From assembly GCF_032854445.1 (NCBI RefSeq), contig NC_088295.1, positions 2,050,501-2,114,500 of the forward strand: 64,000 nt of DNA. Reading direction: 5' to 3'. Position numbers and translations under genes: made by a program. Positions within the stretch are counted from its first letter, which is position 1. Every line of letters starts with the position of its first letter. Positions 1,751 to 64,000 of the stretch are shown piece after piece. Origin of the DNA: Liolophura sinensis. Its lineage: Eukaryota; Mollusca; Polyplacophora; Chitonida; Chitonidae. A model generated the notes under the pieces. The model ran no database searches, was not told where the DNA came from, and saw nothing but the letters and a program-made list of their open reading frames with translations.

Positions 1751-1825
1751 TCATGGTAACTCCCCTCTCTTGTATACCTGAAGAACTATACTTGGGTCAG
1801 CAAACTTAAACTCCACAGGAAAGTG
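1751..1825 (-). CDS. SUFU: SUFU terminal coding exon 10
   Basis: Codons 391-414 and stop TGA. Reads HFPVEFKFADPSIVLQVYKR then GELP, resembling the human C-terminus (LPKEYSWPEKKLKVSILPDV). The acceptor is GGTTCAG|CACTTT, phase 0. Conservation is modest, so this is the least certain SUFU exon. I saw no AATAAA on the minus strand in the 1.7 kb downstream. Confidence 0.75.
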   Translation of the reverse strand, partial: HFPVEFKFADPSIVLQVYKRGELP

Positions 1826-4800
1826 CTGAACCTATAACCAAGTAAAAACACACAGCTTGATTTCAGCTTCACTGTCATGTAAAAAATGATAGATACCTTT
1901 ATGAAAATGACAACACAGTATAGCAATACTCCATAATATATTGTACCCAGCAAACAAAATTCTGTGGGTAGACATAAAGTAGACATAACAGTGTCTCATA
2001 CAGAACAAGGAGCTGCATGCAGGCTGAGAGAGTTACCTGATCTAATTTGTTCAGCTTTTCCAGGTCTGTACACATGTGGTCAAGTAAATCACGGGAACAG
2101 TACACCTACAAAAAGACAAAAATGTCTTCAGGACTACTGAGATTATAGTGCAAGAAAATGAAGTTCTGAAATCAGAGCAAGACAATGTAGCCCTGCATGA
2201 ATATGATACAGGTGAGGGGTCATCCACCTACAGATGAAAAGGTCATCCACCTACAGATGAAGGGGTCATCCACCTACAGATGAAGGGGTCATCCACCTAC
2301 AGATGAAGGGGTCATCCACCTACAGATGAAGGGGTCATCCACCTACAGATGAAGGGGTCATCCACCTACAGATGAAGGGGTCATCCACCTACAGATGAAG
2401 GGGTCATCCACCTACAGATGAAGGGGTCATCCACCTACAGATGAGGGGATCACCCACCTCCAGATGGGGGGGGGGGGAGAGAACCTTCAGATGAGGATAA
2501 CCTACCTACAGATGGGGGGTGACCCACCTACAGGTGAGGGGGAATTGTGATGACCCAACTACAAATGCTGGGGTTGATCCACCTACAGATGATGTTGATC
2601 CATCTACAGATGAGGGTGGTGACCCACCTACAGATGAGGGGGTCACACAAACACACAAATGAGAGGGGTAATCACGCTAGGGAGGGGGGGGGGAGGTGTG
2701 TCACCATTCTATAGATGAGAGAGTCACCATTCTATAGATGAGAGAGTCACCATCCTATATATGAGGGAGTCATCATCCTACAGATGAGGGGAGCACTCAC
2801 TCACAGATGAGGGTCATCACCCTACAGATCAGTGGATCACCCACTTGCAGATGAGGGAGTCATCATCTAACAGATCAGGGAGTCACCATCCTAGAGGTGT
2901 GGGAGTCATCACCCCACAGATGAGGGAGTCGGAGAGGGAGATCGGGCAGTCATCACCCAACAGATGAGGGGTAAATGATGAGGGGCTAATCATCCTACAG
3001 ATACAGAGATAATCCACCTGCAGATGAGGGGTAACCCACGTACTGATGAAGGGGTAACCCACCTGCATATGAAGGGGCAACCCACCTACAGATGAAGGGC
3101 TCACCGACGTACAGATGAAGGGTTCACCGACCTACAGATGAATGGATCACCCACCTGCAGATGAAGGGCTTACCAACCTACAGATGCATGGACCACCCGC
3201 CTGCAGATGAAGGGCTCACCGACCTACCGACCTACAGATGAAGAGGGCACCCACCTACAAGTGAGGGGTAACCATCCTACAGGTTAGGAGATAATATACC
3301 TGAAGATGAGAGAGTCACCATCCCATAGATGAGAGGATAACCCACCTCTACATGAAGAGGTCACCTTAGGTAAAAGGGCCACCCACCTACAGTTGAGGGG
3401 TAATTGAAGAGGGGCTAATCAACCTACAGGTGAAGGGTAACCACCCTACAGATACAGAGATAATCCACCTGCAGATGAGGGGTAACCCACCTACTGATGA
3501 AGGGCTCACTGACCTACAGATGAAGGGCTCACCCACCTGCAGATGAAGGGTCACCATCCTACAGGCAAGGACAAAATCCACCTGCAGATGAGGGGATGCC
3601 ATCCTTTAAATGAGGGAGCCACCCATTCATACAGATTGGGGTGGGGGAGGAGGTCAACCTAGTGAAGAGGTCGTAACCCACAATAGTTTAAGTGTATGAC
3701 CAATATTTAACACAACACCCTAAAACCACCTCACATGTTACCTGACACAAGACTACTGCTAAAAGCTGACTGGTCAAAGCCTAGATGAAGAATGAAGGAG
3801 AAAGCCTGGCAAGCAGTGATCAACCTACCTGCAGATAAGAGCCTTGAGCTACAAGGGGGTCTTCCAGTGTTACCACTACATTTTCATCTTTCATACCCGA
3901 TGGTATTAAATGAATTGTGTGGTTGGTACCACTATGAAAGATGAAAAATCGGCCTTTCTTCAGCCTAGCTCTGAAACAGAATTTGGGAACCTTGAGAAAC
4001 ACAGAATTAATAACAGATAATTCTATCAGGCTGGGTGTAATTAAAAAATAAAATGTAGTTTGCCGTGCTCAAATCACCCAGACAATGCACAGCAGACACG
4101 AGTTGTCCACTGTTTCAGAACGAGGCACTGCCTATGCCAATGTAATGGGTCGAAAATAAACCATCGAATCAGAGCGAGGCATGTAACAGGTTTTGGCCAA
4201 TAAATGCACATTTCCAGCTAGCACCTCTCCATGTCAGTTCGAGCTCTGAATTTGAACATAACAATTTTGCGACAACAGAGGAGTGATGATTTTAAGTAAA
4301 CTAATTAAAAACTGTCAGAAATGAACGATTTATTTTGTAGAGAAACTTGCAGATTTCTTAGATGGTAGTGTTGCCAAGAATTTGATGACCACGTGGAGCT
4401 GATTTCGGCAAACTCAGGCCTACAACTTCAGTTTGGGTCACACTCTGTGTCTGGGTGACGGTAGCTATGGAGCCAGGCGTGCTGACACAAGTCACAGAGG
4501 CATCCGACGACTGGAAGGAAACAACTCAAAGAGCAGTGTTGTTCTTCAGCCAGCCTCTAGCTATATGTAACTCCTCAGACTGGACCCGTTCCGGTGGCCT
4601 GTTACAGATATTATCCCTTGTATTCCAACACCAGTGTGGCTCTGAACAGTGGCTGCAGTGGCGCGAAGACAGTAGTTTGTGTACCGCAGACCGAGTCCTG
4701 CATCAACGGAGATGTCTGCCATCATCGAGCACAAGCTGTTCACTCCCACCTCTTGCATGTAATACCAGCAATCCGCCGCTTTCGGAGGGTTTACAAGTGA

Positions 4801-7800
4801 AAAAACGCATCGTTGCCCATGTTGCGCTTACCCAGATATAGTACCTAGATACTCGCTGTTTGATACCACCTCTTCATACCTCATTCAAGGAATAAGCGCC
4901 CACTGGCCACACGATGTCGGTAATGGTAAATAATTCACCTTTAAACCAAACTGACCAATTATACGTAAATTCATATCAGAAAGTCTTTGGAAAATGTGAA
5001 CTGTCAAATTCTGAAGAATACAGACCTTCTGACAGCAAAAATCGGCCCCCTATTTTATCAGCGAAATGGAATCGTCCCAGTGTCAAAGATGAGGACGGCA
5101 ACTGTACACAGATGATCAATTTGAGCACACATTGCTCACCATTGCTTTCAGCGTTGAAGTTTTTGGAGGTATATTAGAATTCAAAATACACCCTGACATT
5201 TTCTTTTAAAACTCTTATTAAGTGAAGCAGTTCCTCAAATGCTGTGTTCACATGAAAAAAATATGTAACTACCACCAAATTCAGCAAGAGTGTAAATTTT
5301 ATGGAGATATGACTAGTTTTCAACATGTTTCTGCTCTGGTGGTAGAGACTAAAAGTGGACAAAGTTTTAAATGCCACGAAATAATTAATACTGGCATATA
5401 AAAAAGAATATTAACACATAATACAGAATTTCTCAGTAATTTAATTGCGCCTCTAATTATCAGCTTAAAGATCATCTTTAAAATAATAGTGGAAATACAT
5501 GTAGTTCACAACAACTTACTTGACAACCAGGGGTAGTAACTCTGCAGCCTCCGCATCAAATCTCAATTGTGCACTGTCCAATTTCTCCACCTCAGCTGGA
5601 CTAGGATGAGAATTACTCATAGCTTTTGACTTTTGAGATCCAGACGGAGCTACCACACTGGCGACAGGAAGACAGCAAATCACAACAAAAGTGAAAACAT
5701 ATAGCTGTCATAAACAGATTCTCAAAGTTGATGTTTCAATAATAAATTCATTTCTAGACTTGGATCAGTCATGTGGTCACCCTGACTTCACATGACCCTG
5801 ACTTCACAACTGCCAAATTGTCAACGTCAGTTTTCATTTATATTTTGATTTGTACTGTATGCTGTACTCATGAATTTTTCACAGGTATGGGAATAGTCGG
5901 GTACACAGGTGGAAGAAACCACCTACCTTTGTCAGGTGCATGACAATGCTCCAGACAAGACCAGGAAACCATCTACCTGTGCCAGGTGCATGCTAACGTG
6001 CCAGACAAGACCAGGAAACCATCTACCTGTGCCATGTGCATGTTAACGCGCCAGACAAGACCAGGAAACCACCTGCCTTTGCCATGTGCATGACAAACTT
6101 AAAGCCACAAGCAAACCAGCAAGATCTCATTGTTTAAAGTCAGGATTCCTTCTACATAAAAATAATAGATGTCAAAAGTAAACAAATACCATAATTCCAC
6201 TCCACAAGATAATACTGCACCATGTATTTGAGCTTCTCTGTATCGGCTAAGTAATACTGGTGATTTAGCAGCAGCTCCTGGTGGATGAAGAACAGAACTG
6301 GGTGTGTACCTCTCTCCTGGTTTGCACCAGCTGCAGAGTGCGGTAACATGACCCAGGCTGGATCCGTCTCTCTCTATCCCTTCTTTCACTAACAGTGTCA
6401 TGTCTGGCTTCACATCAAACACTGACTTCTGGCGCTTCATGTCAGTTATATGGCAACGCCCCACCCTAAAACCACAACCAGGTTACAGCATATGTAGACG
6501 TACATAAGAGCAGACAAATAATAAGCTGCCCTTTAATCACTTACACACATTTTGTACAATTACTGACTCACGGTACTCAAGAACATTTCATTTGAATGAG
6601 CCAGTTTCAAGAAGTAAACAGATCAGTGACAAACTTCCCCATGCTTGTGACACATAGATTTTACGGTATGCAACACGTATGCTGTAGTGACCTATGATTT
6701 ATGAGGTAATGTGAGGACGGACTGTTTGAGAGAGGTAATGTGAGCACTGACTGTTTGAGAGAGGTAATGTGAGCACTGACTGTTTGAGAGAGGTAATGTG
6801 AGCACTGACTGTTTGAGAGAGGTAATGTGAGGACTGACTGTTTGAGAGAGGTAGTGTGAGCATTGACTGTTTGAGAGAGGTAATGTGAGGACTGACTGTT
6901 TGAGAGAGGTAATGTGAGGACTGACTGTTTGAGAGAGGTAATGTGAGCACTGACTGAGAGAGGTAATGTGAGCACTGACTGTTTGAGAGAGGTAATGTGA
7001 GCACTGACTGTTTGAGAGAGGTAATGTGAGCACTGACTGTTTGAGAGAGGTATTGTGAGCACTGACTGTTTGAGAGAGGTAATGTGAGCACTGACTGTTT
7101 GAGAGAGGTAATGTGAGCACTGACTGTTTGAGAGAGGTAATGTGAGAACTGACAGTTTGAGAGAGGTAATGTGAGCATTGACTGTTTGAGAGAAGTAACA
7201 CAAGCACTGACAGATAGGCTATGAGACCACTGACTTATAGAGGTACTGTGAGGACTGACTGATGGAGGTACTGTGAGGACTGACTGTTTGACAGAGGAAA
7301 TGCAAGCACTGGCTGTTTGAGAGCGGTAATGTGAGGACTGGCTGTTTTAGAGAGGTAATGCGACCACTGGCTGTTTGACAGAGGCAATGTGAGCAGTGAC
7401 TGAGAGAGAGGCAATGTGAGGACTGACTATTTGACACAGGAAATGCAAGCACTGGCTGTTTGAGAGAGGTAATGCAGGTACTGACTGTTTGAGAAAAGTA
7501 ATGCAAGCACTGAATATTTCCTACACTAATGTGAGCACTAATTCTTTGAGTGAGATAATGAGACATATCATTTGATCAGGGCATTGAGACTGACTGTCTG
7601 AGGTTATAAGACTGACAGTTTCACAGAGGAAATGAGACTGACCATTTGAGTGACATAATTAGACTGACCGTTTAAGAGAGGCAATGAGATCAATGACCGC
7701 AGCTCCTCTCCATCTCTGAGCAGCTTTCACTTCATCATCCATCACTCCAACTACCTATAGGGCAATCACAATATACCAAAACACACATCATGTACTATCA

Positions 7801-10800
7801 CTTTATGTGCATATTTGCACAGCTACAGGATTAACAACTGTGTCCTGACACCAGAAGAGTACCAGTGAGTACACTACAAATCTACAGCCAAACCAAATTA
7901 TTCCTGAAAATATCACTGAAACAAAAAAAAAAAAAATACACACCAGAACCAATGGCCAAACTGAGATACATTTAAATACTAACCAAATTTTCAATTCTTG
8001 AAAAATAAGATGAAAAAGTAAAATACAATGCATTTATCTGAGTGTTGTGTAATGCCATAAATAAGAATGTATGCAATGATAACCAGATTTATGGGGGGAG
8101 GAAAATGCATTTATTTATTTATTATTTATTTTATTTATTTCATTGGTGTTTTACGCCATACTCAAGAATATTCCACTTATACGACGGCGGCCAGCATTAC
8201 GGTGGGAGGAAACTGGGCACAGTCGGGGGAAACCCACGACCATCCACAGGTTGCTGATAGTCCTTCCCACTTACGGCCGGAGAGGAAGCCAGCATGAGCT
8301 GGACTTGAACTCACAGCGACCACATTGGTGAGAGGCTCCTGGGTCATTAGGCTGCGCTAGCGCGCTAACCGACTGAGCCACAGAGGCCCCCTATTTATTA
8401 GGCTTCCCATCAAATCACTTGGGCTACCTGCTAGAGTATAAAACTTTACCCACCTGTGACCCACTTTTCAGACATATTGGCACCTTCATTTCTGACTGGC
8501 TACAAGGCTATGAACTAAAGTTTTGCCATTAAAATGTCTTTAAAAACTTGTTATTTTTCTTCATTGCTGGCTTGTAAAATTGCAATCTCAAAAAGCCAGT
8601 CAAGGTAGAAAAAACAAACTTGGCATTTTTAATAACGAACATATGAAGCTTCTTTCAACGTTTTTCACTAATGATCTTTAAAAGAAATTTCACTTGCAAG
8701 TTTTAGGTGGATCGCCGTGCCTATATTTTAAATGTCAGTAGTGAAGTCACGCTATTGTCTGCGCAGTTGATTATTTTTCAAGAATCCACACTTGTGAGTT
8801 TTTGTTTTGGGTGACAACTTGTAACATCCGAGTGTGCATCTGATTGGTGTGACGTAAAGCGGGATTCGAACCCACAAACACAGGACTTTAAAAACGTCCC
8901 AATATCCCACTGAGCTATCTGGTAAGGCCTTTCAACCTTCTCCTTTTAGATGACTTTAAACGTTTGTTGTGAGGTCAACCTTTTGTCAAACATAAGAATG
9001 TTATATATGAAGGGTTCATTCGTTTCTTAGCAATATGAAATTTATTTTCTGACAGTTTCGTTCTTTGCCCTTATTTCAAATACACCAAATGTTGCCACTG
9101 TGAGAAAAGGCAGAGCGGTGTCATCAATTTTCTCAAGAAAAAATATGAAGAGCACAACAGAGTTTGTACTACGGTGAACTGGTGGGTATAATTTGTGGCA
9201 TTCTTTTTACAAATCTCAAAGCGTTGATATGTCAATGTGACAGAAATTGTGTAATCTACTATCAGATTTTGCTGTTTATATGTAAGCTTCGTTCAATTCA
9301 GATATAGATCAAGTCACCGTTCAAAATCTTACACACCCAGTATGTGCTTAAGTACTAAAGTGAATGGAAGTCCCTATCTCTGCACATGTTCTTTATAAAG
9401 CGACACAAACTAAATGTTTCCTTGTAACATGCAGGGGAGTCCTGGTACTGCCAGGGTTATAAAGTGAATGCATTTTTGACCGGCAATTCATTCCAGAGGA
9501 CAAAGAACAATAACTGTTGACCCTTGACATTTTTGACCAGCAATTCATTCCAGAGGACAAAGAACAATAACTGTTGATCCTTGACATTTTTGACCAGCAA
9601 TTCATTCCAGAGGACAAAGAACAATAACTGTTGATCCTTGACATTTTTGACCAGCAATTCATTCCAGAGGACAAAGAACAATAACTGTTGACCCTTGACA
9701 TTTTTGACCAGCAATTCATTCCAGAGGACAAAGAACAATAACTGTTGATCCTTGACATTTTTGACCGGCAATTCATTCCAGCGGACAAAGAACAATAACT
9801 GTTGATCCTTGAAAAATAATCAGCAGCTGCATAACACTGGACGCTGATGTTCTACGTCGAGCCAATTATTTTTCAAGACTCGTCATTTGCAAGGCGTTTC
9901 TCTACTACGTAAAAAAACTGTTTGTTGGGTATGCAAGTTATGCTGTAACTGACCAATGAAATTAGCTACAAAGTAGCTCAAGTCCAAAAAATGCTTAAAT
10001 AAACACATTGCCTAGTACTGCTTGACGTCAGGATTACAAATCTGTAAGAATTATTTATGTACTTAGTATAGTTTTCAGGTTATGACCAAAAACCATCAAA
10101 AATAAGAAGTACATTTATGACGGACACCCTTCTTGCACACCATCCCCCCTCTTCTCCAAGATGACCATACATGCAAAAACTGACAAAACCTTCCATTCAA
10201 ATAACACAGGAGCTTTGTGCTAGACCACACGAAACCTGTTCACAACAGTGCTGTCTACAGGGTGTGTATTCTAATTCTGTCTGGCGACCGAAGCAGTAGA
10301 TCAAAGAAACAATCTCTATACATGTGGCCCAGCACTACTATATGAGAGCACTGTTTGTTTTTTCTTCCACTGTCTTTCACCATAGCCCCAATGAACACTG
10401 GCGCTAGCAGTCACCAATTCAAATCCAGTTTATTCCCGTCAATCTTTGTTCTTTTTTTTTCCTTTAATTACCATGAAATTAGGCCCCAGACTATCAGTTT
10501 TAACAGCCTGGAGTTTAATTCCAGTCTACTTCTTACCATTCTTACCAAATTCATTTCTGATTTAAGCATGGACACTATGGTTCATTTGTTGGAGATTGTT
10601 ACGCCGGGTGTCGCTCAAATAGTTTTGTATTTGTTGAAAATAAGAGGTTCTGGTTTCGCCAAGGTACATGCAAGTCACTTCTTCAGAGAGTTCATTGTGT
10701 AATATTGACTATGTTCATTACTTTGCTTGTATTAGACAAACCTGGGATCTTTTCATAAGAGTAAAGAGCTGAAAGACTTTAACGGTCTGTGGTGGAAAAA

Positions 10801-15494: not shown

Positions 15495-15875
15495 AGTTTG
15501 AAAGTTGTACCATTTAATTCTCGTTTCATCCGCTAGGATCGCGACGAACCTGTCATACTTATTAAATTACCTTTTAAAACAAGAGTGTATACAATTCTTT
15601 TTCTGTCTGTAAGCTTTTGTAAGACATAAAACATTAAATTTGGAAAATATTCCGCTGCGTTTTATTGTCATTCTGTTCCGAAATATGTCTAGACATATGC
15701 ACGCATTTTTCTATAGCGGACATGGATAGTCATCAAAATAACAAATATGGCTGCTCCCATGTGTCATGACCGTGTGGAGTGGGAAGTGTTGAAATAAGGC
15801 GTTATATTCATGGATGTCATGATGTCTTAGACTGCCAGTTCTTGGAAGAAGATATTTCCATTTCATGTCGTTAAA
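15495..15875. promoter_or_regulatory. Shared divergent promoter of SUFU and RPTOR
   Basis: Only 381 bp separate the SUFU start codon (minus) from the RPTOR start codon (plus), so both 5' UTRs and core promoters must lie here unless non-coding first exons exist elsewhere. No TATA box is obvious. A plus-strand ATGGCTGC element at about 15747 resembles the YY1-type motif of housekeeping promoters. Transcription start sites cannot be placed from sequence alone. Confidence 0.7.
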
Positions 15876-16028
15876 ATGATGACAGGCGAGCTGGATTTCA
15901 GTGTGTTTGGGGACGAGGAAGACGATGTTGATGACTGGGACCTCCCCCTAGCTTTCACGAGCCCTCGTCACACTGAGAAAATACAGGGCCCAAAGACTGT
16001 CACCCAGACATGGCGCATGAAAGAAAGG
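15876..16028 (+). CDS. RPTOR: RPTOR coding exon 1
   Basis: Residues 1-51. Begins [20 protein letters not shown] and then [17 protein letters not shown] and TWRMKER, matching human DWNLPLAF and WRMKDR. Two consecutive ATGs allow a start at 15876 or 15879. The donor AGG|GTGTGA is weak but in phase 0 with exon 2. Confidence 0.92.
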
Positions 16029-55000: not shown

Positions 55001-58000
55001 ATCCAGGGCTGGTGTTGTCGACCTGTCTTCTGATGTAGATACAGTGTAATGTTGGTATCCAGGGCTGGTGTTGTCAACCTGTCTTCCGATGTAGATACAG
55101 TGTAATGTTGGTATCCATGGCTGGTGTTGTCAACCTGTCTTCCGATGTAGATACAGTGTAATGTTGGTATCCAGGGCTGGTGTTGTAGACCTGTCTTCTG
55201 ATGTAGATACAGTGTAATGTTGGTATCCAGGGCTGGTGTTGTCGACCTGTCTTCTGATGTAGATACAGTGTAATGTTGATATCCAGGGCTGGTGTTGTCG
55301 ACCTGTCTTCCGATGTAGATACAGTGTAATGTTGGTATCCAGGGCTGGTGTTGTCGACCTGTCTTCCGATGTAGATACAGTGTAATGTTGGTATTCAGGG
55401 CTGGTGTTGTCGACCTGTCTTCCAGTGTAGATACAGTGTAGTGTTGGTATCCAGGGCTGGTGTTGTCGACCTGTCTTCCGATGTAGATACAGTGTAATGT
55501 TGGTATCCAGGGCTGGTGTTGTCGACCTGTCTTCTGATGTAGATACAGTGTAATGTTGGTATCCATGGCTGGTGTTGTCCACCTGTCTTCCGATGTAGAT
55601 ACAGTGTAATGTTGGTATCCAGGGCTGATGTTGTCGACCTGTCTTCCGATGTAGATATAGTGTAATGTTGGTATCCAGGGCTGGTGTTGTGGACCTGTCT
55701 TCTGGTTTAGATACAGTGTAATGTTGGTATCCAGGGCTGGTGTTGTCCACCTGTCTTCTGATGTAGATACAGTGTAATGTTGATATCCAGGGCTGGTGTT
55801 GTCGACCTGTCTTCCGATGTAGATACAGTGTAATGTTGATATCCAGGGCTGGTGTTGTCAACCTGTCTTCCGGGTTAGATACAGTGTAATGTTGGTATCC
55901 AGGGCTGGTGTTGTCAACCTCTCTTCTGATGTAAATACAGTGTAATGTTGATATCCAGGGCTGGTGTTGTCAACCTCTCTTCTGATGTAAATACAGTGTA
56001 ATGTTGATATCCAGGGCTGGTGTTGTCAACCTGTCTTCCGATGTAGATACAGTGTAATGTTGGTATCCAAGGCTGGTGTTGTCGACCTGTCTTCCGGGTT
56101 AGATACAGTGTAATGTTGGTATCTAGGGCTGGTGTTGTCGACCTGTCTTCCGATGTAGATACAGTGTAATGTTGATATCCAGGGCTGGTGTTGTCGACCT
56201 GTCTTCCGATGTAGATTAAGTGTAATGTTGGTATCCAGGGCTGGTGTTGTCGACCTGTCTTCCGATGTAGATACAGTGTAATGTTGATATCCAGGGCTGG
56301 TGTTGTCGACCTGTCTTCCGGTTTAGATACAGTGTAATGTTGGTATCCAGGGCTGGTGTTGTCCACCTGTCTTCCGGTGTAGATACAGTGTAATGTTGGT
56401 ATCCAGGGCTGGTGTTGTCGACCTGTCTTCCGGGTTAGATACAGTGTAATGTTGATATCCAGGGCTGGTGTTGTCCACCTATCTTCCGATGTAAATACAG
56501 TGTAATGTTGGTATCCAAGGCTGGTGTTGTCAACCTGTCTTCCGATGTAGATACAGTGTAATGTTGGTATCCAGGGCTGGTGTTGTCAACCTCTCTTCTG
56601 ATGTAAATACAGTGTAATGTTGATATCCAGGGCTGGTGTTGTCAACCTCTCTTCTGATGTAAATACAGTGTAATGTTGATATCCAGGGCTGGTGTTGTCG
56701 ACCAGTCTTCTGATGTAAATGCAGTGTAATGTTGGTATCCAGGGCTGGTGTTGTCAACCTCTCTTCTGATGTAGATACAGTGTAATGTTGGTATCCATGG
56801 CTGGTGTTGTCGACCTGTCTTCCGATGTAGATACAGTGTAATGTTGGTATCCAGAGCTGGTGTTGTCGACCTGTCTTCCGATGTAGATACAGTGTAATGT
56901 TGATATCCAGGGCTGATGTTATCAACCTGTCTTCTGATGTAGTGTAGATACAGTATAATGTTGATATCCAGGGCTGATGTTATCAACCTGTCTTCTGATG
57001 TAGTGTAGATACAGTATAATGTTGATATCCAGGTCTGATATTGTCAACCTCTCTTCTGATGTAGATACAGTATAATGTTGATATCCAGGTCTGATATTGT
57101 CAACCTCTCTTCTGATGTAGATACAGTATAATGTTGATATCCAGGTCTGATATTGTCAACCTGTCTTCTGATGTAGATACAGTATAATGTTGATATCCAG
57201 GGCTGGTGTTGTCCACCTATCTTCCGATGTAAATACAGTGTAATGTTGGTATCCAAGGCTGGTGTTGTCAACCTGTCTTCCGATGTAGATACAGTGTAAT
57301 GTTGGTATCCAGGGCTGGTGTTGTCAACCTCTCTTCTGATGTAAATACAGTGTAATGTTGATATCCAGGGCTGGTGTTGTCAACCTCTCTTCTGATGTAA
57401 ATACAGTGTAATGTTGATATCCAGGGCTGGTGTTGTCGACCAGTCTTCTGATGTAAATGCAGTGTAATGTTGGTATCCAGGGCTGGTGTTGTCAACCTCT
57501 CTTCTGATGTAAATACAGTGTAATGTTGGTATCCAAGGCTGGTGTTGTCGACCTGTCTTCCGATGTAGATACAGTGTAATGTTGGTATCCAGAGCTGGTG
57601 TTGTCGACCTGTCTTCCGATGTAGATACAGTGTAATGTTGATATCCAGGGCTGATGTTATCAACCTGTCTTCTGATGTAGTGTAGATACAGTATAATGTT
57701 GATATCCAGGGCTGATGTTATCAACCTGTCTTCTGATGTAGTGTAGATACAGTATAATGTTGATATCCAGGTCTGATATTGTCAACCTCTCTTCTGATGT
57801 AGATACAGTATAATGTTGATATCCAGGTCTGATATTGTCAACCTGTCTTCTGATGTAGTGTAGATACAGTATAATGTTGATATCCAGGTCTGATATTGTC
57901 AACCTCTCTTCTGATGTAGATACAGTATAATGTTGATATCCAGGTCTGATATTGTCAACCTCTCTTCTGATGTAGATACAGTATAATGTTGATGCCCAGG

Positions 58001-61000
58001 GCTGGTGTTGTCAACCTCTCTTCTGATGTAGATACAGTATAATGTTGATGCCCAGGGCTGATGTTGTCAACCTCTCTTCTGATGTAGATACAGTATAATG
58101 TTGATATCCAGGTCTGATATTGTCAACCTCTCTTCTGATGTAGATACAGTATAATGTTGATGCCCAGGGCTGGTGTTGTCAACCTCTCTTCTGATGTAGA
58201 TACAGTATAATGTTGATATCCAGGTCTGATATTGTCAACCTCTCTTCTGATGTAGATACAGTATAATGTTGATGCCCAGGGCTGGTGTTGTCAACCTCTC
58301 TTCTGATGTAGATACAGTATAATGTTGATATCCAGGTCTGATATTGTCAACCTCTCTTCTGATGTAGATACAGTATAATGTTGATGTCCAGGGCTGGTGT
58401 TGTCAACCTCTCTTCTGATGTAGATACAGTATAATGTTGATGCCCAGGGCTGATGTTGTCAACCTCTCTTCTGATGTAGATACAGTATAATGTTGATGTC
58501 CAGGGCTGATATTGTCAACCTCTCTTCCGATGTAGATACAGTATAATGTTGATATCCAGGGCTGGTGTTGTCAACCTTTCTTCTGGTATAGATACAGTAT
58601 AATGTTGATATCCAGGTCTGATACTGTCAACCTCTCTTCTGATGTAGATACAGTATAATGTTGATGCCCAGGGCTGATGTTGTCAACCTCTCTTCCGATG
58701 TAGATACAGTGTAATGTTGGTATCCAGGGCTGGTGTTGTCCACCTGTCTTCCGATGTAGATACAGTGTAATGTTGATATCCAGGGCTGATGTTATCAACC
58801 TGTCCTCTGATGTAGTGTAGATACAGTATAATGTTGATATCCAGGTCTGATACTGTCAACCCCTCTAATGATGTAGGTACAGTGTAATGTTGATATCCAG
58901 GTCTGATATTGTCAAACTCTCTTCTGATGTAGATACAGTATAATGTTGATGCCCAGGGCTGGTGTTGTCGACCTGTCTTCTGATGTGGATACAGTATAAT
59001 GTTGATGCCCAGGGCTGATGTTGTCAACCTCTCTTCTGATGTAGATACAGTATAATGTTGATGCCCAGGGCTGGTGTTGTCGACCTGTCTTCTGATGTGG
59101 ATACAGTATAATGTTGATGCCCAGGGCTGATGTTGTCAACCTCTCTTCTGATGTAGATACAGTATAATGTTGATGCCCAGGGCTGGTGTTGTCGACCTCT
59201 CTTCTGATGTAGATACAGTATAATGTTGATGCCCAGGGCTGGTGTTGTCGACCTGTCTTCTGATGTAGATACAGTATAATGTTGATGCCCAGGGCTGGTG
59301 TTGTCAACCTCTCTTCTGATGTAGATACAGTATAATGTTGATGCCCAGGGCTGGTGTTGTCAACCTCTCTTCTGATGTAGATACAGTATAATGTTGATGC
59401 CCAGGGCTGGTGTTGTCAACCTCTCTTCTGATGTAGATACAGTATAATGTTGATGCCCAGGGCTGGTGTTGTCGACCTGTCTTCCGATGTAGATACAGTA
59501 TAATGTTGATATCCAGGGCTGATGTTGTCGACCTGTCTTCTGATGTAGATACAGTATAATGTTGATGCCCAGGGCTGATGTTGTCAACCTGTCTTCTGAT
59601 GTAGATACAGTATAATGTTGATGTCCAGGTCTGATATTGTCAACCTCTCTTCTGATGTAGATACAGTATAATGTTGATATCCAGGTCTGATATTGTCAAC
59701 CTCTCTTCTGATGTAGATACAGTATAATGTTGATGTCCAGGGCTGGTGTTGTCAACCTCTCTTCTGATGTAGATACAGTATAATGTTGATGTCCAGGGCT
59801 GGTGTTGTCAACCTCTCTTCTGATGTAGATACAGTATAATGTTGATGCCCAGGGCTGATGTTGTCAACCTCTCTTCTGATGTAGATACAGTATAATGTTG
59901 ATGCCCAGGGCTGATACTGTCAACCCCTCTAATGATGTAGATACAGTATAATGTTGATGCCCAGGGCTGGTGTTGTCAACCTCTCTTCTGATGTAGATAC
60001 AGTATAATGTTGATGCCCAGGGCTGGTGTTGTCAACCCCTCTCCTGATGTAGATACAGTATAATGTTGATGCCCAGGGCTGATGTTGTCAACCTCTCTTC
60101 TGATGTAGATACAGTATAATGTTGATGTCCAGGGCTGATGTTGTCAACCCCTCTAATGATGTAGATACAGTATAATGTTGATGCCCAGGGCTGATGTTGT
60201 CAACCTCTCTTCTGATGTAGATACAGTGTAATGTTGATATCCAGGGCTGATGTTATCAACCTGTCTTCTGATGTAGTGTAGATACAGTATAATGTTGATG
60301 CCCAGGGCTGATACTGTCAACCCCTCTAATGATGTAGATACAGTATAATGTTGATATCCAGGTCTGATATTGTCAACCTCTCTTCTGATGTAGATACAGT
60401 ATAATGTTGATGTCCAGGGCTGATGTTATCAACCTGTCTTCTGATGTAGTGTAGATACAGTATAATGTTGATGCCCAGGGCTGATACTGTCAACCCCTCT
60501 AATGATGTAGATACAGTATAATGTTGATATCCAGGTCTGATATTGTCAACCTCTCTTCTGATGTAGATACAGTATAATGTTGATGCCCAGGGCTGATGTT
60601 ATCAACCTGTCCTCTGATGTAGTGTAGATACAGTGTAATGTTGATGCCCAGGGCTGATGTTGTCAAACTCTCTTCTGATGTAGATACAGTATAATGTTGA
60701 TATCCAGGTCTGATATTGTCAACCTCTCTTCTGATGTAGATACAGTGTAATGTTGATGCCCAGGGCTGATGTTGTCAACCTCTCTTCTGATGTAGATACA
60801 GTGTAATGTTGATATCCAGGGCTGATGTTATCAACCTGTCCTCTGATGTAGTGTAGATACAGTATAATGTTGATGCCCAGGGCTGATGTATGTATTTGAT
60901 ACCCTTCTTATGTTTTATTTCTCCACCAGGAGGCAGCACTGCAGGGTAATCTGATCTCTATATGTCTGGAACAGTTGACGGACTCGCACTCTCAACTCCG

Positions 61001-63458
61001 CCAGTGGCTGGCTATCTGTCTAGGCAAGGTAAGGGCAGACCTCACTACAGGCTAGCTTGATCTCTGTGTGTCTGGACAAGGTAAGGGGTAACTACATTTC
61101 AGGTTAACCTGATCTCTGTATGTCTAGGCAAGGTAAGGGCTGACCTCGCATTGTCAGGTGCATTGATTGGCCTTTGTCAGGTTATAATACTGCTATGTCG
61201 TGTTTGTCAAGTGTATTGATGTGTGGTTCTCTTTGTCAGGTTATAATACCGCTATGTGGTTGTGTTTGTCAAGTGTATTGATGTGTGGTTCTCTATCTCA
61301 GGTTATAATACCGCTATAGTGTTGTGTTTGTCAAGTGTATTGATGTGTGGTTCTCTATCTCAGGTTATAATACTGCTGTGTGGTTGTGTTTGTCAGGTGT
61401 ATTGATGTGTGGTTCTCTATCTCAGGTTATAATACCGCTATGTGGTTGTGTTTGTCAAGTGTATTGAGGTGTGGTTCTCTATCTCAGGTTATAATACCGC
61501 TATGTGGTTGTGTTTGTCAAGTGTATTGATGTGTGGTTCTCTATCTCAGGTTATAATACCGCTATGTGGTTGTGTTTGTCAGGTGTGGACCCAGTTTGAC
61601 CCTGCCCGGTGGTGTGGGGTGAGAGACAGTGCTCACGAGAAACTCCACAAGATGTTGTCTGACCCTATCCCTGAGGTAAGAAATGTGGTAAATACATGTA
61701 GCCATGTATTTAAAGGTCAATATTTGCCTGTGGAAATCATATTTTTAATGATTTTAAACTGGATTGTGGTTTAAGTATTCTGTGCTCCCTAACCCTTGTC
61801 TAATGTGTCTTTCAGGTTAGAGCAGCTGCAGTTTTCGCCCTGGGGACTTTTATCTCTAACTGTACCCAGCGTAGCGACCACGCTAACAACATTGACCTTG
61901 GGGTTGGGATGAAGCTGATAGGTGTCCTGCAGGATGGAAGCCCCTTAGTCAGGAAGGTGGGTCTTAGCTCAGCATGGATGATACTGATGACCACAAGAAT
62001 GGCATGGATGATACTGATGACCATAGACATGGCAGGGATGATACTGATGACCTAAACTTCAGGGATGATACTGATGACCATAAACATGTCAGGGATGATA
62101 CTGATGACCATAAACATGTCAGTGATGATATTGATGACCATAAACATGTCAGGGATGATACTGATGACGATAAACATGTCATTGATGATATTGATGACCA
62201 TAAACATGTCAGGGATAATATTGATGACCACAAGCATGGCAGGAATGATACTGATGACCATAATCATGGCAGGAATGATAACGATGACCATAAACATTGC
62301 AGGGATGATACTGATGACCACAAGCATGGCAGGAATGATACCGATGACCATAATCATGGCAGGAATGATACCGATGACCATAAACATTGCAGGCATGATA
62401 CTGATGATCATAAACATGTCAGGGATGATACTGATGACCATAAACATTGCAGGGATGATACCGATGACCATAAACATTGCAGGGATGATACTGATGACCA
62501 TAAACATGTCTGGGATGATACTGATGACCATAAACATGTCAGGGATAATATTGATGACCACAAGCATGGCAGAAATGATACTGATGACCATAAACATGTC
62601 TGGGATGATACTGATGGCCACAAGCATGGCAGGAATGATACTGATGACCATAAACATTACAGGGATGATACTGATGACCATAAACATTGCAGGGATTATA
62701 CTGATGACCATAAACATGTCAGGGATAATATTGATGACCACAAGCATGGCAGGGATGATACTGATGACCACAAACATGTCAGGGATGATACTGATGACCA
62801 TAGACATGTCAGGGATAATATTGATGACCACAAGCATGGCAGGAATGATACTGATGACCATAGACATGTCAGGGATAATATTGATGACCACAAGCATGGC
62901 AGGAATGATACTGATGACCATAGACATGGCAGAGATAATATTGATGACCACAAGCATGGCAGGAATGATACTGATGACCATAGACATGGCAGAGATAATA
63001 TTGATGACCACAAGCATGGTAGGGATGATACTGATAACATATGTATATGTGTGTTGTGAAGTTGAGATCTTTGTAATTGAAGTTGAGCTGTGTGCTGATG
63101 AGAAGTTGAACTCTGTGTTGATAAAGTTGAGCTGTATGTTAAGAAGTAGAGCTGCGTGTTGATGAGAAATTGAGCTGAGTGTTGATGAGAGTTGAGCTGT
63201 GTGTTGATGAAGTTGGGCTTTGTGTGTGTTGATGAGAATTTGAGCTGCATGGTGATGAGCCTTGTGTTAATGAGAAGGTCAGCTGTGTGTGGAGAAGTTA
63301 TTACCAGAACTTTGATCATTTTTGTACAGGAGCTGGCTGTGGCTTTCTCAGGGCTGGTTGTCCAGTTTGAGAGTCAGTTTGCTGCCATTGCCCATCAGTT
63401 CATCGAGGAAGAGAGGACAAAGGAGACGAACAGTGCAATGGTGGCCGCGGTGCTCCGG
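15876..63458 (+). CDS. RPTOR: Raptor (regulatory-associated protein of mTOR) homologue, N-terminal 698 residues, partial at 3' end
   Basis: Raptor is the mTORC1 subunit that recruits TOS-motif substrates and docks on Rag GTPases at lysosomes. Exons: 15876-16028, 17392-17494, 17925-18085, 20408-20488, 26053-26199, 26421-26587, 33489-33548, 33836-33936, 36496-36637, 38229-38409, 40941-41024, 41198-41308, 44683-44757, 46947-47012, 60930-61028, 61583-61675, 61816-61956, 63330-63458. All phases agree, giving 698 codons. The RNC caspase-like domain spans about residues 52-215, with [10 protein letters not shown] (His146, His150) and YDCSNAG (Cys193). The armadillo-type helical domain follows from about residue 300. 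The linker and WD40 propeller lie beyond the window. Identity to human Raptor is high through most exons. Oddities are the exon 9 duplication and very large repeat-filled introns. Confidence 0.96.
16029..17391. other. RPTOR intron 1
   Basis: Non-repetitive 1.36-kb intron without recognisable coding blocks or mobile elements. One of the few repeat-free introns here. Confidence 0.6.
17392..17494 (+). CDS. RPTOR: RPTOR coding exon 2
   Basis: Residues 52-85 plus one base: [20 protein letters not shown] and then [14 protein letters not shown]. This is the start of the RNC domain and nearly identical to the human protein. The acceptor is ATTGTAG|ATGAAG and the donor TTAG|GTATGT. Confidence 0.97.
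17925..18085 (+). CDS. RPTOR: RPTOR coding exon 3
   Basis: Residues 86-139, including [20 protein letters not shown] and [20 protein letters not shown], a hallmark of Raptor. The acceptor is CTTCACAG|ATCCAT and the donor GCCAAG|GTAGTA. Confidence 0.98.
18086..19650. other. RPTOR intron 3, unique part
   Basis: Non-repetitive, AT-rich. The short ORFs at 18259-18462 and 19202-19390 show no family resemblance that I can recognise. Confidence 0.5.
19655..20400. repeat. 31-bp array in RPTOR intron 3, abutting the exon 4 acceptor
   Basis: About 24 units of GTAATCATCTGAGATCTCCC then TACCGTATCGT. The last unit breaks off in CTACCGTATTG only a few bases before the acceptor TTACAG|GAAGAG. Whether the unit derives from the junction is unclear; the match past the acceptor is poor. 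Confidence 0.9.
20408..20488 (+). CDS. RPTOR: RPTOR coding exon 4 (caspase-like His exon)
   Basis: Residues 140-166: [20 protein letters not shown] and then EIWVFNK. It carries the conserved His pair of the caspase-like fold. The acceptor is TTGTTACAG|GAAGAG, abutted by the 31-bp array; the donor is AATAAG|GTAAGC. Confidence 0.98.
20489..21130. other. RPTOR intron 4, first part
   Basis: Unique sequence. A 98-codon minus-strand ORF at 20597-20893 has a hydrophobic stretch but no recognisable family and is treated as chance. Confidence 0.5.
21134..21320. repeat. 23-bp array in RPTOR intron 4, 8 units
   Basis: Units of TGAGACCCCCTGATATGCAT then TTC, almost identical to each other. Confidence 0.93.
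21321..22371. other. RPTOR intron 4, unique spacer
   Basis: No repeat or coding signal seen, apart from a poly-T run near 21540. Confidence 0.5.
22372..24640. repeat. 52-bp array in RPTOR intron 4, about 43 units
   Basis: Unit: AGGTCTGTGTAGGCCTATAC, ATGTATGTAACTACAAGACT, CTCTGTACCGGT. Variants alternate AGGCC/AAGCC, CTCTCTG/CTCTCAG and ACCGG/ACCTG. No match to the exon 4 or 5 edges was seen. Confidence 0.95.
25250..25918. repeat. 111-bp array in RPTOR intron 4, 6 units
   Basis: Very homogeneous units beginning TGTGAGATTCTGGTACAATT and ending GTGGGTGGAGACCA. Since 111 is 37 codons, a 212-codon minus-strand pseudo-ORF of near-identical repeats runs through it. No domain is recognised and codon-level constraint is not evident. 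Confidence 0.93.
26053..26199 (+). CDS. RPTOR: RPTOR coding exon 5 (caspase-like Cys exon)
   Basis: Residues 167-215: [20 protein letters not shown], then YVYDCSNAG (Cys193) and [13 protein letters not shown]. The acceptor is ATGTTGCAG|AGTTAC and the donor ATAGAG|GTAACA, phase 0. Confidence 0.98.
26421..26587 (+). CDS. RPTOR: RPTOR coding exon 6
   Basis: Residues 216-270 plus two bases. A divergent Ser/Gln-rich start, then [20 protein letters not shown] and [17 protein letters not shown]. The acceptor is TTTTTTAG|TCTGTC and the donor AAATG|GTGAGG. Confidence 0.97.
26630..26930. repeat. 59-bp array in RPTOR intron 6, 5 units
   Basis: Five virtually perfect copies containing GGCAATTTTGTGCCAACAGT and CAGTCAGTTGTAGCTATATA. 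The absence of divergence implies a very recent expansion. Confidence 0.95.
27163..33488 (+). repeat. 54-bp array in RPTOR intron 6, about 110 units, exon 7 acceptor-derived
   Basis: Each unit contains ATATCTGATTGTTTCTGCAG|GTATGTTTTGCA then ATATTGTATCTGAGGCTGAT. The exon 7 boundary is ATATCTGATTGTTTTTGCAG|GTATGTGTTGCA, so the real exon start is the terminal unit. Two unit families (CCCAAGG and TCTGAGG) intermix and blocks recur, for example units with GATTGTTTTGCAGG at about 29010, 29432, 30834 and 31323. A SINE interrupts the first unit. The 54-bp length keeps frames open, giving minus-strand pseudo-ORFs up to about 800 codons. Confidence 0.97.
27193..27561 (+). mobile_element. tRNA-derived SINE with target-site duplication inside the 54-bp array
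   Basis: Begins GACCGGCCCGGATAGCACAG then TTGATAGAGCG (tRNA-like A-box region). The tail is GAGTACGACGTTAAACCCCA followed by ACTCACTCGCACTCACTCAC, a tail type typical of mollusc SINEs. It is flanked by CACAATATTGTA at 27181-27192 and 27562-27573, a 12-bp target-site duplication that is itself part of a 54-bp repeat unit. Confidence 0.85.
33489..33548 (+). CDS. RPTOR: RPTOR coding exon 7 (60 bp)
   Basis: Residues 271-290 with split codons at both ends: [20 protein letters not shown], matching human WFCMQKCVSLVPGVTLDLIE. The acceptor TTTTTGCAG|GTATGT is identical to the core of the 54-bp repeat that fills intron 6, so the exon looks like the last unit of that array. Its first six bases also read as a donor. 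The true donor is GACAA|GTAAGT. Confidence 0.95.
33836..33936 (+). CDS. RPTOR: RPTOR coding exon 8
   Basis: Residues 291-324 plus one base: [20 protein letters not shown] and then [13 protein letters not shown]. The acceptor is CTCTTCAG|GGTTCC and the first donor CCTAGAG|GTAAGT. About eight further copies of the exon end and donor follow; the first was chosen because its phase fits. Confidence 0.94.
33937..34420 (+). repeat. 61-bp array in RPTOR intron 8: copies of the exon 8 end with donor
   Basis: About eight copies of ATCTTCACGGCCATCACTGA, TACTGTGGCCTGGAACACTC and TGCCTAGAG|GTAAGTCA follow directly after the real exon 8. Most keep an intact GTAAGT donor; the copy near 34238 reads GTAATT. 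Since 61 is not a multiple of 3, use of a downstream donor would shift the frame. Confidence 0.96.
34440..36085. repeat. 41-bp array in RPTOR intron 8, about 40 units
   Basis: Units of CCCATTTACTGGTAGTAAAC, ATCAGTCAACATGGCCTGTC, T. Some units are shortened (CATCAAACATGG). No link to the exon 8 or exon 9 edge was found. Confidence 0.94.
36096..36495. other. RPTOR intron 8, unique 3' end
   Basis: AT-rich sequence leading into the exon 9 acceptor region. It includes the conserved acceptor TGTTACAG at 36484, which is 11 bp upstream of the frame-restoring one. Confidence 0.7.
36496..36637 (+). CDS. RPTOR: RPTOR coding exon 9 (start site uncertain)
   Basis: Residues 325-371 plus two bases: [20 protein letters not shown], then [15 protein letters not shown] and TYQHPM. 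The conserved acceptor TGTTACAG at 36484 would give the family DLFQR but is then out of frame because TTCAGCGG is duplicated at 36491-36506. An acceptor at 36495 (TTTCAG|CGGTTC) restores frame and changes DLFQR to AVQR. The donor ATGTG|GTGAGT is followed by many copies. Confidence 0.82.
36638..37975 (+). repeat. Array in RPTOR intron 9: copies of the exon 9 end with donor
   Basis: Mixed long units (about 117-120 bp) and short units (about 50 bp). They repeat TACAACTGTACCCCTGTATC, TAGTCCTAACTTGCCCTCCA, CGTACCAGCA and AATGTGGTGAGTCCTGTTTT, all copied from the exon 9 end and its GTGAGT donor. About 18 donor-like TGTG|GTGAGT sites follow the real one. Short units are internal deletions of the long unit. 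One variant family reads GTTTTGAGTCC, losing the donor GT context. Confidence 0.95.
38229..38409 (+). CDS. RPTOR: RPTOR coding exon 10
   Basis: Residues 372-432: [20 protein letters not shown], then [20 protein letters not shown] and [10 protein letters not shown]. The acceptor is TTGTTACAG|GAATGC and the donor CTTCAG|GTGTGT, phase 0. Its 3' end is the source of the 54-bp repeat in intron 10. Confidence 0.97.
38410..40858 (+). repeat. 54-bp array in RPTOR intron 10, about 45 units, derived from the exon 10 end with donor deleted
   Basis: Unit: CACCAGAACAACTCCCCAGT, TGTCTGCCTTACACACCCAT, ATAGCCACACACAG. Compare the exon 10 junction: CACCAGAGCAGTTACCCATT, GTACTTCAG|GTGTGTCTGC, CGTACATACCCATATAGTCA. 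The unit is the exon end fused to intron start with about 13 bp, including the donor, removed. It yields long open frames on both strands that are not genes. Confidence 0.95.
40941..41024 (+). CDS. RPTOR: RPTOR coding exon 11
   Basis: Residues 433-460: [20 protein letters not shown] and then LGPWAVSL, essentially identical to human. The acceptor is CCACCCAG|GTGTTG and the donor AGTTTG|GTGAGA. Confidence 0.98.
41198..41308 (+). CDS. RPTOR: RPTOR coding exon 12
   Basis: Residues 461-497: [20 protein letters not shown] and then [17 protein letters not shown]. This is the highly conserved armadillo core. The acceptor is ATATTTCAG|GCACTG and the donor GATAGT|GTAAGT. Confidence 0.98.
41309..41630. 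other. RPTOR intron 12, unique 5' part
   Basis: AT-rich sequence before the array. No features seen. Confidence 0.5.
41636..44660 (+). repeat. Acceptor-derived array in RPTOR intron 12, about 90 half-units
   Basis: Alternating half-units of about 31 bp: CTCTACAG|TCCTATGCACATA and CTCTACAG|TCCTGTACACGC, each with a TTTCCCTCTACAG-type pyrimidine tract. The real exon 13 boundary is TTTCCCTACAG|TCATGCCAGG, so the unit resembles the acceptor plus the first exon bases. A block of at least about 400 bp (41990-42450) recurs 970 bp downstream. The last third (43980-44610) is a variant family with GGCCCTGTATACATGTTATA. Confidence 0.94.
44683..44757 (+). CDS. RPTOR: RPTOR coding exon 13 (75 bp)
   Basis: Residues 498-522: [20 protein letters not shown] and then DPYMP. 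The acceptor is TTCCCTACAG|TCATGC and the donor ATGCCT|GTGAGT. The acceptor with the first exon bases is the apparent template of the array in intron 12. Confidence 0.98.
44758..46946. other. RPTOR intron 13, no tandem array
   Basis: 2.2 kb without minisatellite. Two segments, about 44850-45010 and 45845-45960, share a dispersed-repeat flavour (ATGAAACTTA then AACTTRTGCATGCCT) and may be halves of an old non-autonomous element. No coding signal was recognised. Confidence 0.5.
46947..47012 (+). CDS. RPTOR: RPTOR coding exon 14 (66 bp)
   Basis: Residues 523-544: [20 protein letters not shown] then GQ, matching human AEHRTMTAFILAVIVNSYHT. The acceptor is GCTGTACAG|GCTGAG and the donor GGGCAG|GTGAGT. 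Confidence 0.97.
47150..60890. repeat. 13.7-kb 56-bp array filling RPTOR intron 14, about 245 units
   Basis: Unit: CCTCTCTTCTGATGTAGATA, CAGTATAATGTTGATGTCCA, GGGCTGGTGTTGTCAA. Variant positions (CTCTCTTCTG/CTGTCTTCCG, GATGTCC/GGTATCC/GATGCCC, TATAAT/TGTAAT) form regional subfamilies: mixed at 47.1-50.9 kb, GGTATCC at 50.9-56.9 kb, GATGCCC at 57.9-60.9 kb. Some units carry a 5-bp TGTAG insertion (61 bp). A block of about 3.3 kb is duplicated in tandem. Each unit contains GATACAG, an acceptor-like AG. Confidence 0.97.
60930..61028 (+). CDS. RPTOR: RPTOR coding exon 15
   Basis: Residues 545-577: [20 protein letters not shown] and then [13 protein letters not shown]. The acceptor is TCTCCACCAG|GAGGCA and the donor GGCAAG|GTAAGG. 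Two imperfect copies of its end and donor follow in intron 15. Confidence 0.97.
61029..61145 (+). repeat. Two copies of the exon 15 end and donor in RPTOR intron 15
   Basis: After the real donor GGCAAG|GTAAGGGC come TTGATCTCTGTGTGTCTGGA then CAAGGTAAGG, and CTGATCTCTGTATGTCTAGG then CAAGGTAAGG. They combine the exon 15 start (CTGATCTCTATATGTCTGG) with its end (GTCTAGGCAAG) and the donor. Confidence 0.85.
61150..61582 (+). repeat. 62-bp array in RPTOR intron 15, exon 16 acceptor-derived, 6-7 units
   Basis: Unit: GGTTATAATACCGCTATGTG, GTTGTGTTTGTCAAGTGTAT, TGATGTGTGGTTCTCTATCT, CA. The exon 16 boundary is GGTTATAATACCGCTATGTG, GTTGTGTTTGTCAG|GTGTGG. Most copies have CAAG where the real acceptor has CAGG; one copy (about 61395) keeps CAGG. 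Confidence 0.93.
61583..61675 (+). CDS. RPTOR: RPTOR coding exon 16
   Basis: Residues 578-608: [20 protein letters not shown] and then [11 protein letters not shown]. The acceptor is GTTTGTCAG|GTGTGG and the donor CCTGAG|GTAAGA. The acceptor segment is repeated upstream. Confidence 0.97.
61816..61956 (+). CDS. RPTOR: RPTOR coding exon 17
   Basis: Residues 609-655: [20 protein letters not shown] and then [20 protein letters not shown]. The acceptor is CTTTCAG|GTTAGA and the donor AGGAAG|GTGGGT. Confidence 0.97.
61973..63040. repeat. 30-bp array in RPTOR intron 17, about 36 units
   Basis: Units of GGATGATACTGATGACCATA then AACATGTCAG, starting 17 bp after the exon 17 donor. Since 30 is a multiple of 3, it produces a 361-codon Asp/His-rich pseudo-ORF on the plus strand and others. 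Confidence 0.95.
63056..63300. repeat. Degenerate 20-25-bp repeat in RPTOR intron 17
   Basis: About ten diverged units of GTTGAGCTGTGTGTTGATGA then GAA, between the 30-bp array and the exon 18 acceptor. Confidence 0.8.
63330..63458 (+). CDS. RPTOR: RPTOR coding exon 18 (last in window)
   Basis: Residues 656-698: [20 protein letters not shown], then AHQFIEEER and MVAAVLR. The acceptor is TTGTACAG|GAGCTG and the likely donor CTCCGG|GTGGGT, phase 0; reading on hits a stop after five codons. The next block in human Raptor is the Ser/Pro-rich linker, expected to the right of the window. Confidence 0.93.
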
Positions 63459-64000
63459 GTGGGTGGAATCTAGTGACATCTGGTGGCAGCTCTGGTAATC
63501 CCTCCCACAGTTGTCCACAGTTAACCCTCAGTCAGTGCCCGCAATGCACAGGGCACAGGCCACTTGCGTCTTCACACCCCCCCCCCCCCCCCCATGCATG
63601 AAAGCCCATCTTTTCTTTATGTTATAACATTGATATGTTGACAGCATGTGCCCGCAGCGTGCAATTTTATGTATGTTGTACAGATAACTTTGTACTATTT
63701 GACACCCTGGATCTCTTTGTTGGATTTTTCGTTCTGTTGTTGCCAGATTTTTGTGAACGAAGCATGTTTCTTCATTCAAGTGCTGTTTTTTTTTTGTTTT
63801 TTTTTAAGAACACGATATCAAAACGTGAATTTCACCAGACGATCAAATTGTGGTCAGTTTCAAAGGTCCCATCTTCATTTGATGGATTACATTTTAAATT
63901 TAATAGTGTATTATCTACACTCATCTTCATCAGTTAGTGTTTTGGGGTGTGAAATAAAAAAAAAACCCACTAAATTCCATTGCCTTATTTCAAAAGTGTG
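63459..64000. other. RPTOR intron 18, start
   Basis: Unique sequence with a C run near 63580 and A/T runs near 63790 and 63955. No coding block of the next Raptor exon was seen. Confidence 0.6.

Follow-up and report, generated by a model that had tools for sequence, protein, structure and literature searches.

Mirage-like minisatellites at exon–intron borders in two adjacent genes of the chiton Liolophura sinensis

Minisatellite arrays cross a splice junction in seven introns of two adjacent genes within the window, that is, the whole 64-kb stretch of Liolophura sinensis DNA analysed here. The repeat unit of each array comprises the edge of an exon together with its donor or acceptor, and the real exon lies at the terminal position of the array. 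By their structural features, these arrays are mirages, a kind of repeat already described in amphioxus and found here in a mollusc at high density. It is likely that they are also mirages in origin, namely minisatellites founded by a duplication straddling an exon–intron border, which survive since splicing hides the copies.

Gene models and host assembly

Two gene models served as the frame for the analysis.

1751..15494, minus strand: coding span of a SUFU-like gene with 10 exons; the model equals the NCBI protein and contains the Pfam domains SUFU and SUFU_C
15876..63458, plus strand: RPTOR, exons 1–18, running on past the window; supported by the NCBI protein and by RPTOR chains in PDB

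The SUFU model, whose end at 1751 was derived from exon lengths, is identical over 416 of 416 residues to P0121 (NCBI 'suppressor of fused homolog [Liolophura sinensis]'). Its protein is only 38% identical to its match in B. floridae, which sets aside amphioxus as the source of the window, and 42% identical to P0162, a second SUFU of L. sinensis. The first 696 of 698 residues of the RPTOR model are identical to P0241 (NCBI 'LOW QUALITY PROTEIN: regulatory-associated protein of mTOR-like [Liolophura sinensis]'). The 26 introns that separate the 18 RPTOR and 10 SUFU exons are GT-AG throughout, at 52 of 52 junctions.

Two places in RPTOR deserve mention. In exon 18 (63445–63470), the low-quality NCBI protein and the straight reading part ways beyond residue 696, which points to a frame difference, either in the assembly or in an allele. 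The start of exon 9 (36484–36512) contains an 8-bp tandem duplication (CAGCGGTT/CAGCGGCT); both the model and the NCBI protein take the AG located 11 nt downstream of a preceding AG, and in this region the NCBI protein lacks one residue relative to the RPTOR chain in PDB. The SUFU-like gene and RPTOR may be neighbours in many molluscs, and matches to both were retrieved from Patella, Mercenaria, Ruditapes, Mizuhopecten, Gigantopelta, Lottia, Solemya and Sinanodonta.

A published L. sinensis assembly, which may not be the one that contains the window, has a size of ~609 Mb, was built from HiFi reads and consists of 27.89% repeats, according to passages of PMC11068029. The species of the assembly was first named L. 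japonica, a name later corrected to L. sinensis (PMC12441733).

Arrays that cross splice junctions

After 61 TRF rows had been merged by hand, 22 arrays were obtained, which occupy 40,195 bases or 63% of the window. All except one are intronic. Seven of the 21 intronic arrays cross a splice junction, four of them at a donor and three at an acceptor. The counts of retained AG or GT given below include the real copy and omit copies scoring less than half the unit length.

13886..14553, minus strand: SUFU intron 1, 61-bp unit, acceptor type; 6 nt of exon 2; acceptor 13891/13892; AG in 11/11 copies
12451..13308, minus strand: SUFU intron 3, 88-bp unit, donor type; 26 nt of exon 3; donor 13282/13283; GT in 7/8 copies
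6703..7689, minus strand: SUFU intron 5, donor type; 21 nt of exon 5; donor 7668/7669; GT in 24/29 copies
27567..33501, plus strand: RPTOR intron 6, 54-bp unit, 110 copies, acceptor type; 13 nt of exon 7; acceptor 33488/33489; AG in 104/110 copies
33883..34413, plus strand: RPTOR intron 8, 61-bp unit, donor type; 54 nt of exon 8; donor 33936/33937; GT in 8/9 copies
36580..37974, plus strand: RPTOR intron 9, 85/51-bp units, donor type; 58 nt of exon 9; donor 36637/36638; GT in 11/13 copies
61177..61586, plus strand: RPTOR intron 15, 62-bp unit, acceptor type; 4 nt of exon 16; acceptor 61582/61583; AG lost in 4/6 copies

The entry for SUFU intron 5 merges a 29-bp array (6703–7560) with a 26-bp row (7609–7689), and its overlap with the exon comes through this small row. 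Arrays cover 182 of 3539 exon bases (SUFU exon 6 having been counted 120 nt too long), all of which are the seven edge overlaps. In 7/7 crossing arrays the true junction belongs to an end copy, as is required if the gene still works.

RPTOR intron 15 additionally harbours copies of the opposite type.

61029..61150, plus strand: RPTOR intron 15, two donor-type copies of the edge of exon 15; score 81 against 36.5 for the best of 25 control junctions

These copies, which apparently carry an internal deletion, were outside the TRF list and are not among the 21 arrays. The donor and acceptor classes of the preliminary description hold, including the presence of both types in this intron, and so does its statement that both genes and both strands are affected.

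The same description had claimed units built from an exon edge plus the adjoining donor or acceptor in ten introns. Seven of these are certain, as the array crosses the junction. Two more are moderate cases (SUFU 8 and RPTOR 12) and one is probable (RPTOR 10). For such weaker cases, the array stretch or its copies were aligned to the junction and to 25 control junctions.

2207..3564, minus strand: SUFU intron 8, ~23-bp unit, merged from several TRF rows; similar to the exon 8 donor (3828/3829) but ending 264 nt from it; moderate
41635..44567, plus strand: RPTOR intron 12, ~31/63-bp unit, acceptor type; degenerate copies run toward acceptor 44682/44683; moderate
38413..40856, plus strand: RPTOR intron 10, 54-bp unit; starts 3 nt past donor 38409/38410 and resembles the exon edge; probable

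Correspondence between units and their own junctions

Each unit was aligned to the junctions of its own intron and to 50 junctions of other introns, which gives a rank out of 51. When 40 exon and 15 intron bases are used, the unit of every crossing array ranks first (z 7.9 to 41), a result that is partly built in, as the 15 intron bases of the own junction belong to the array. On 60 exon bases alone, the units of SUFU 3, SUFU 5, RPTOR 8 and RPTOR 9 still rank first of 51, that of RPTOR 6 is second (a tie), and those of SUFU 1 and RPTOR 15 are 17th and 21st. These last two share just 6 and 4 bases of exon, and they are assigned as acceptor cases because the splice site itself falls within the array.

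The weaker arrays gave smaller differences. SUFU 8 scores 44 against its own donor, with 38.5 for the best of the 25 controls, and ranks 3–4 of 51 in the unit test; RPTOR 12 scores 40.5, with 31 for the best of 25, and ranks 2–16 of 51. The unit of RPTOR 10 lacks ~12 nt around the junction. Its score of 31 is surpassed at one of 25 control junctions (34.5), and its in-phase match is equalled by 73 of 7620 control windows and at none of 16 other donors.

The remaining 11 of the 21 arrays were not counted as junction-derived: those in RPTOR introns 3, 4 (three arrays), 6 (59-bp), 8 (41-bp), 14 and 17 (two arrays) and in SUFU introns 4 and 6. One of them, the 30-bp array of RPTOR intron 17 (61957–63035), begins 15 nt past the donor and may weakly resemble the edge of exon 17. 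It scores 29.5, nearly equal to RPTOR 10, with one of 25 controls higher (30.5); its unit is first of 51 on exon bases alone and 31st with 40 exon and 15 intron bases. The other ten showed no convincing junction match when their units were compared with the set of 51 junctions. RPTOR 3, RPTOR 14, the 30-bp array of RPTOR 17 and SUFU 6 were rechecked against 25 controls, and none was counted as junction-derived; at the SUFU intron 6 donor, the one junction misplaced by the overlong exon 6 in the comparison with 51 junctions, three of the 25 controls score as high. The RPTOR 3 array ends 8 nt from the acceptor.

The sequence matches between units and exon edges exceed chance. The preliminary description had allowed that they might be expected of AT-rich units, a concern that the four units ranking first of 51 on exon bases alone, with the junctions of the window as controls, set aside. 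Chance matches of AT-rich units could explain the weak resemblances in other arrays such as RPTOR 17, and in SUFU 1 and RPTOR 15 the shared stretch of exon is too short for the exon-only test. As an account of the crossing arrays, chance or an assembly artefact is nevertheless extremely improbable, given four units that beat 50 of 50 controls at their own exon edge. The HiFi reads behind the published assembly, which may not be the window's own, also speak against an artefact (passages of PMC11068029).

Unit anatomy and conservation of copies

The exonic share of the unit in the seven arrays is 0.06, 0.10, 0.24, 0.59, 0.59, 0.68 and 0.89, and no fixed anchoring of the junction within the unit was seen; its place fits a uniform spread (KS p 0.93), a test that has little power at n=7. 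Such random placement fits duplications with random breakpoints. AGGT junctions were not significantly preferred, either among the strict seven (4/7 vs 18/45, Fisher p 0.44) or in a set of 11 cases (7/11 vs 15/41, Fisher p 0.17).

These observations bear on the RNA-linked copying mechanism suggested in the preliminary description and on any anchored route, neither of which found backing: the junction lies anywhere in the unit, donors and acceptors are both hit, and the AGGT motif is not significantly favoured. If spliced or partly spliced RNA, or lariats, were reverse-copied into the intron as tandem units, exon edges would be present in the units, as they are. However, the units contain both flanks of a single junction, exonic and intronic, ordered as in the genome, and lie beside that same junction, and a lariat would contain no exon. 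We regard this route as very improbable.

Splice dinucleotides are no better kept than other positions of the unit in the seven arrays to which the comparison was applied, SUFU 5 being left out (conservation quantiles 0.21 to 0.55 in six arrays and 0.00 in RPTOR 15). It therefore seems highly improbable that selection keeps the arrays as an aid to splicing or regulation, for example as decoys or ratchet points. The loss of AG from most acceptor copies of RPTOR 15 points the same way. Some features would suit such a function, namely the presence of at least 82 CAG|GTATGT motifs in RPTOR intron 6 and the use of AG|GT motifs as either splice site in human genes, as described in passages of PMC10809524.

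In SUFU 1, SUFU 3, SUFU 5 and RPTOR 8, one of the end copies falls clearly short of the mean for interior copies; the difference is small or absent in RPTOR 6, RPTOR 9 and RPTOR 15. Except in RPTOR 8, neighbouring copies show scarcely greater similarity than any two copies of the array. The array in RPTOR intron 9 has higher-order periods of 51, 85, 136, 187, 272, 323 and 459 (TRF), which fit slippage or unequal exchange.

Distribution relative to exon–intron borders

The number of crossings expected by chance was estimated by placing a seed of one period at random according to three schemes: per array-free intron base, with the intron drawn evenly, or within the array's own intron. Per base, 2.7 of 21 crossings are expected and 7 were seen (p 0.012). 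With introns drawn evenly the expectation is 6.1 (p 0.42), and with placement in the own intron it is 5.9 (p 0.35). The latter value is high because 11 of the 16 introns with arrays leave no more than 87 to 475 bases array-free. Removing three SINE-like stretches made little change (6.2 expected in the own intron, p 0.42).

Twelve of the 21 arrays lie within one period of a junction, against expectations of 5.1 per base (p 0.001), 11.0 with an even intron draw (p 0.41) and 10.3 in the own intron (p 0.22). When the three weaker arrays are included as junction-derived, the count is 10/21, with p 9e-5 per base and 0.02 in the own intron. Introns with more array-free sequence do not hold more arrays (Spearman 0.07, p 0.72).

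A bias toward borders in the birth of minisatellites is possible, and its detection in this single window, picked for being striking, depends on the null chosen. The preliminary description had proposed a process that seeds minisatellites at exon–intron borders; the per-base comparison (p 0.012) agrees with it and the own-intron comparison (p 0.35) does not. According to such a reading, a mutational process connected, for example, with pausing, R-loops or breaks favours the borders, and minisatellites arise there more often. We consider it possible, although rather doubtful. The per-base excesses in crossings, in arrays within one period and in the extended count of 10/21 would be expected from it, as would an array number independent of array-free intron length, and the same pattern occurs in an unrelated phylum, as described for amphioxus in the passages cited below. 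However, the excess is gone when arrays are placed within their own intron (0.22 for proximity within one period, and 0.02 only with all three weaker cases), breakpoints do not cluster at the junction, and AGGT is not significantly preferred.

Comparison with mirages and other systems

It had been stated initially that no system of this kind was known to have been described. This is not the case: passages of PMC3087553 and PMC3902484 describe amphioxus 'mirages', minisatellite-like tandem duplications over an intron–exon boundary, at donors or acceptors, in which many but not all copies have AG or GT. PMC3087553 credits the name to Canestro and others in 2002, in work on Adh. The amphioxus genes concerned are Adh3, the globins BflGb6 and BflGb9, TnC and PGBD5, of which PGBD5 is added and TnC cited by PMC3902484. 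According to the passages of PMC3087553, amphioxus mirages seem not to disturb splicing and might be general in cephalochordates. Further features of amphioxus mirages are an interior that is homogenised while the ends of the cluster escape, polymorphic length and somatic instability.

The chiton arrays share with mirages a unit that spans the exon–intron boundary (7/21 intronic arrays), their occurrence at both donors (4) and acceptors (3) and the retention of AG or GT in many but not all copies (11/11, 7/8, 24/29, 104/110, 8/9, 11/13 and 2/6). They differ in belonging to another phylum and in affecting 7 to 10 of the 26 introns of two genes. They also differ in size, with up to 110 copies in 5.9 kb in the chiton, whereas the two haplotypes of BflGb6 have 6 and 3 units and amphioxus units measure 10–160 bp, as given in the passages on amphioxus. 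No report of mirages in molluscs was found among the matches listed from the open-licence literature, nor in the repeat and intron passages of two chiton genome papers. A gene of abalone has an intronic minisatellite, for which the passages of PMC6905558 describe no link with a border.

Related phenomena are known elsewhere. In human segmental duplications, internal tandem repeats occur at exon–intron boundaries, and the expansion of a boundary minisatellite alters gene structure, as in the chiton; these repeats differ in having on average four 30-bp units, in varying between paralogues and in creating introns in some instances (passages of PMC2812944). The dual-specific AGGT sites of human UBC likewise involve repeat units with a motif that serves as donor or acceptor, and their expansion can be spliced out (passages of PMC10809524). 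The same passages consider that expansion of tandem repeats with AGGT is likely less harmful, being removable by splicing, the same logic as that proposed here for the chiton arrays. Unlike those of the chiton, the UBC repeats are coding, and AGGT junctions are not significantly favoured in the chiton. The Rogers model of intron gain by tandem duplication of AG/GT (cited in the passages of PMC3087553) also involves a duplication that includes splice signals; in contrast, the chiton arrays enlarge introns that already exist.

Proposed origin

The preferred reading, a border-straddling duplication whose copies are hidden by splicing, can be laid out in three steps. A tandem duplication of some 20–90 bp would arise at an essentially random site in or beside a short intron. 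Where the duplication lies over a splice site, one end copy would join the exon correctly and the rest would become intron, making the change close to harmless; selection would eliminate a duplication of this kind if it lay within an exon. Growth by slippage or unequal exchange would then carry the exon edge and splice site along, and at a late stage some arrays may lose the splice dinucleotide. The sequence itself shows the units, their overlap with the junction and the end position of the real exon; we infer in which order the steps occurred, how the mutations arise and that they are neutral, and harmless splicing is an assumption.

The number of crossings, which is near the own-intron expectation (5.9, p 0.35), supports this simple duplication model. 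So do the spread of junction positions through the unit, the occurrence of four donor and three acceptor types, the end position of the real junction in 7/7 arrays, the confinement of arrayed exon bases to the seven edge overlaps, the lack of extra conservation at splice dinucleotides, the apparently undisturbed splicing in amphioxus and the higher-order periods of RPTOR 9. Several results count against it: the per-base excess of crossings (p 0.012), the excess within one period (p 0.001) and the 10/21 obtained with the weaker arrays (p 9e-5 per base, 0.02 in the own intron). The lack of a relationship between array number and array-free intron length, also expected from border seeding, and the hardly greater similarity of adjacent copies (RPTOR 8 apart), by which local turnover is not visible, likewise count against it.

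The dense mirages of the chiton suggest a wider route of intron growth and provide a second assembled genome for testing border bias. If the bias is real, splice junctions are probably slippage-prone sites; if it is not, the arrays are a clean example of selection shaping where repeats survive. As they multiply functional-looking splice sites, they also offer a natural test of how the spliceosome chooses its sites.

Double splice motifs in RPTOR intron 6

In the RPTOR intron 6 array the unit contains CTGCAG|GTATGT, in which an acceptor runs straight into a donor-like motif. CAG|GT is present in 88 of 88 pattern-matched copies between 27567 and 33501, and CAG|GTATGT in 82 of 88. Ratchet points of recursive splicing are composed of a juxtaposed acceptor and donor (passages of PMC8605326), a feature shared by these copies. 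Joining exon 6 to any CAG|GTATGT copy would recreate a donor, and, judging from the motif alone, stepwise removal of the intron would be possible in principle. We consider it unlikely, but worth stating, that a genuine border bias is common to genomes as distant as those of lancelet and chiton, with borders acting as hot spots that lengthen introns, and that RPTOR intron 6 could undergo recursive splicing. If so, recursive splicing would make a wrong choice of acceptor in this intron self-correcting.

Other repeats in the window

The only non-intronic array (79–1436), which was excluded from the counts, lies just downstream of SUFU and has ~71 copies of a 19-bp unit. RPTOR intron 14 is filled by a 13.8-kb array (47125–60889) with ~245 copies of a 56-bp unit that is not clearly junction-derived. 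Three stretches in SUFU intron 4 and RPTOR intron 6 (8105–8395, 10870–11100 and 27195–27566) were recognised by eye and are presumably SINE-like repeats. A full-text literature search with pieces of them gave no match. Rfam at gathering score and a tRNA scan gave no hits. The last of these stretches, 27195–27566, directly adjoins the RPTOR intron 6 array.
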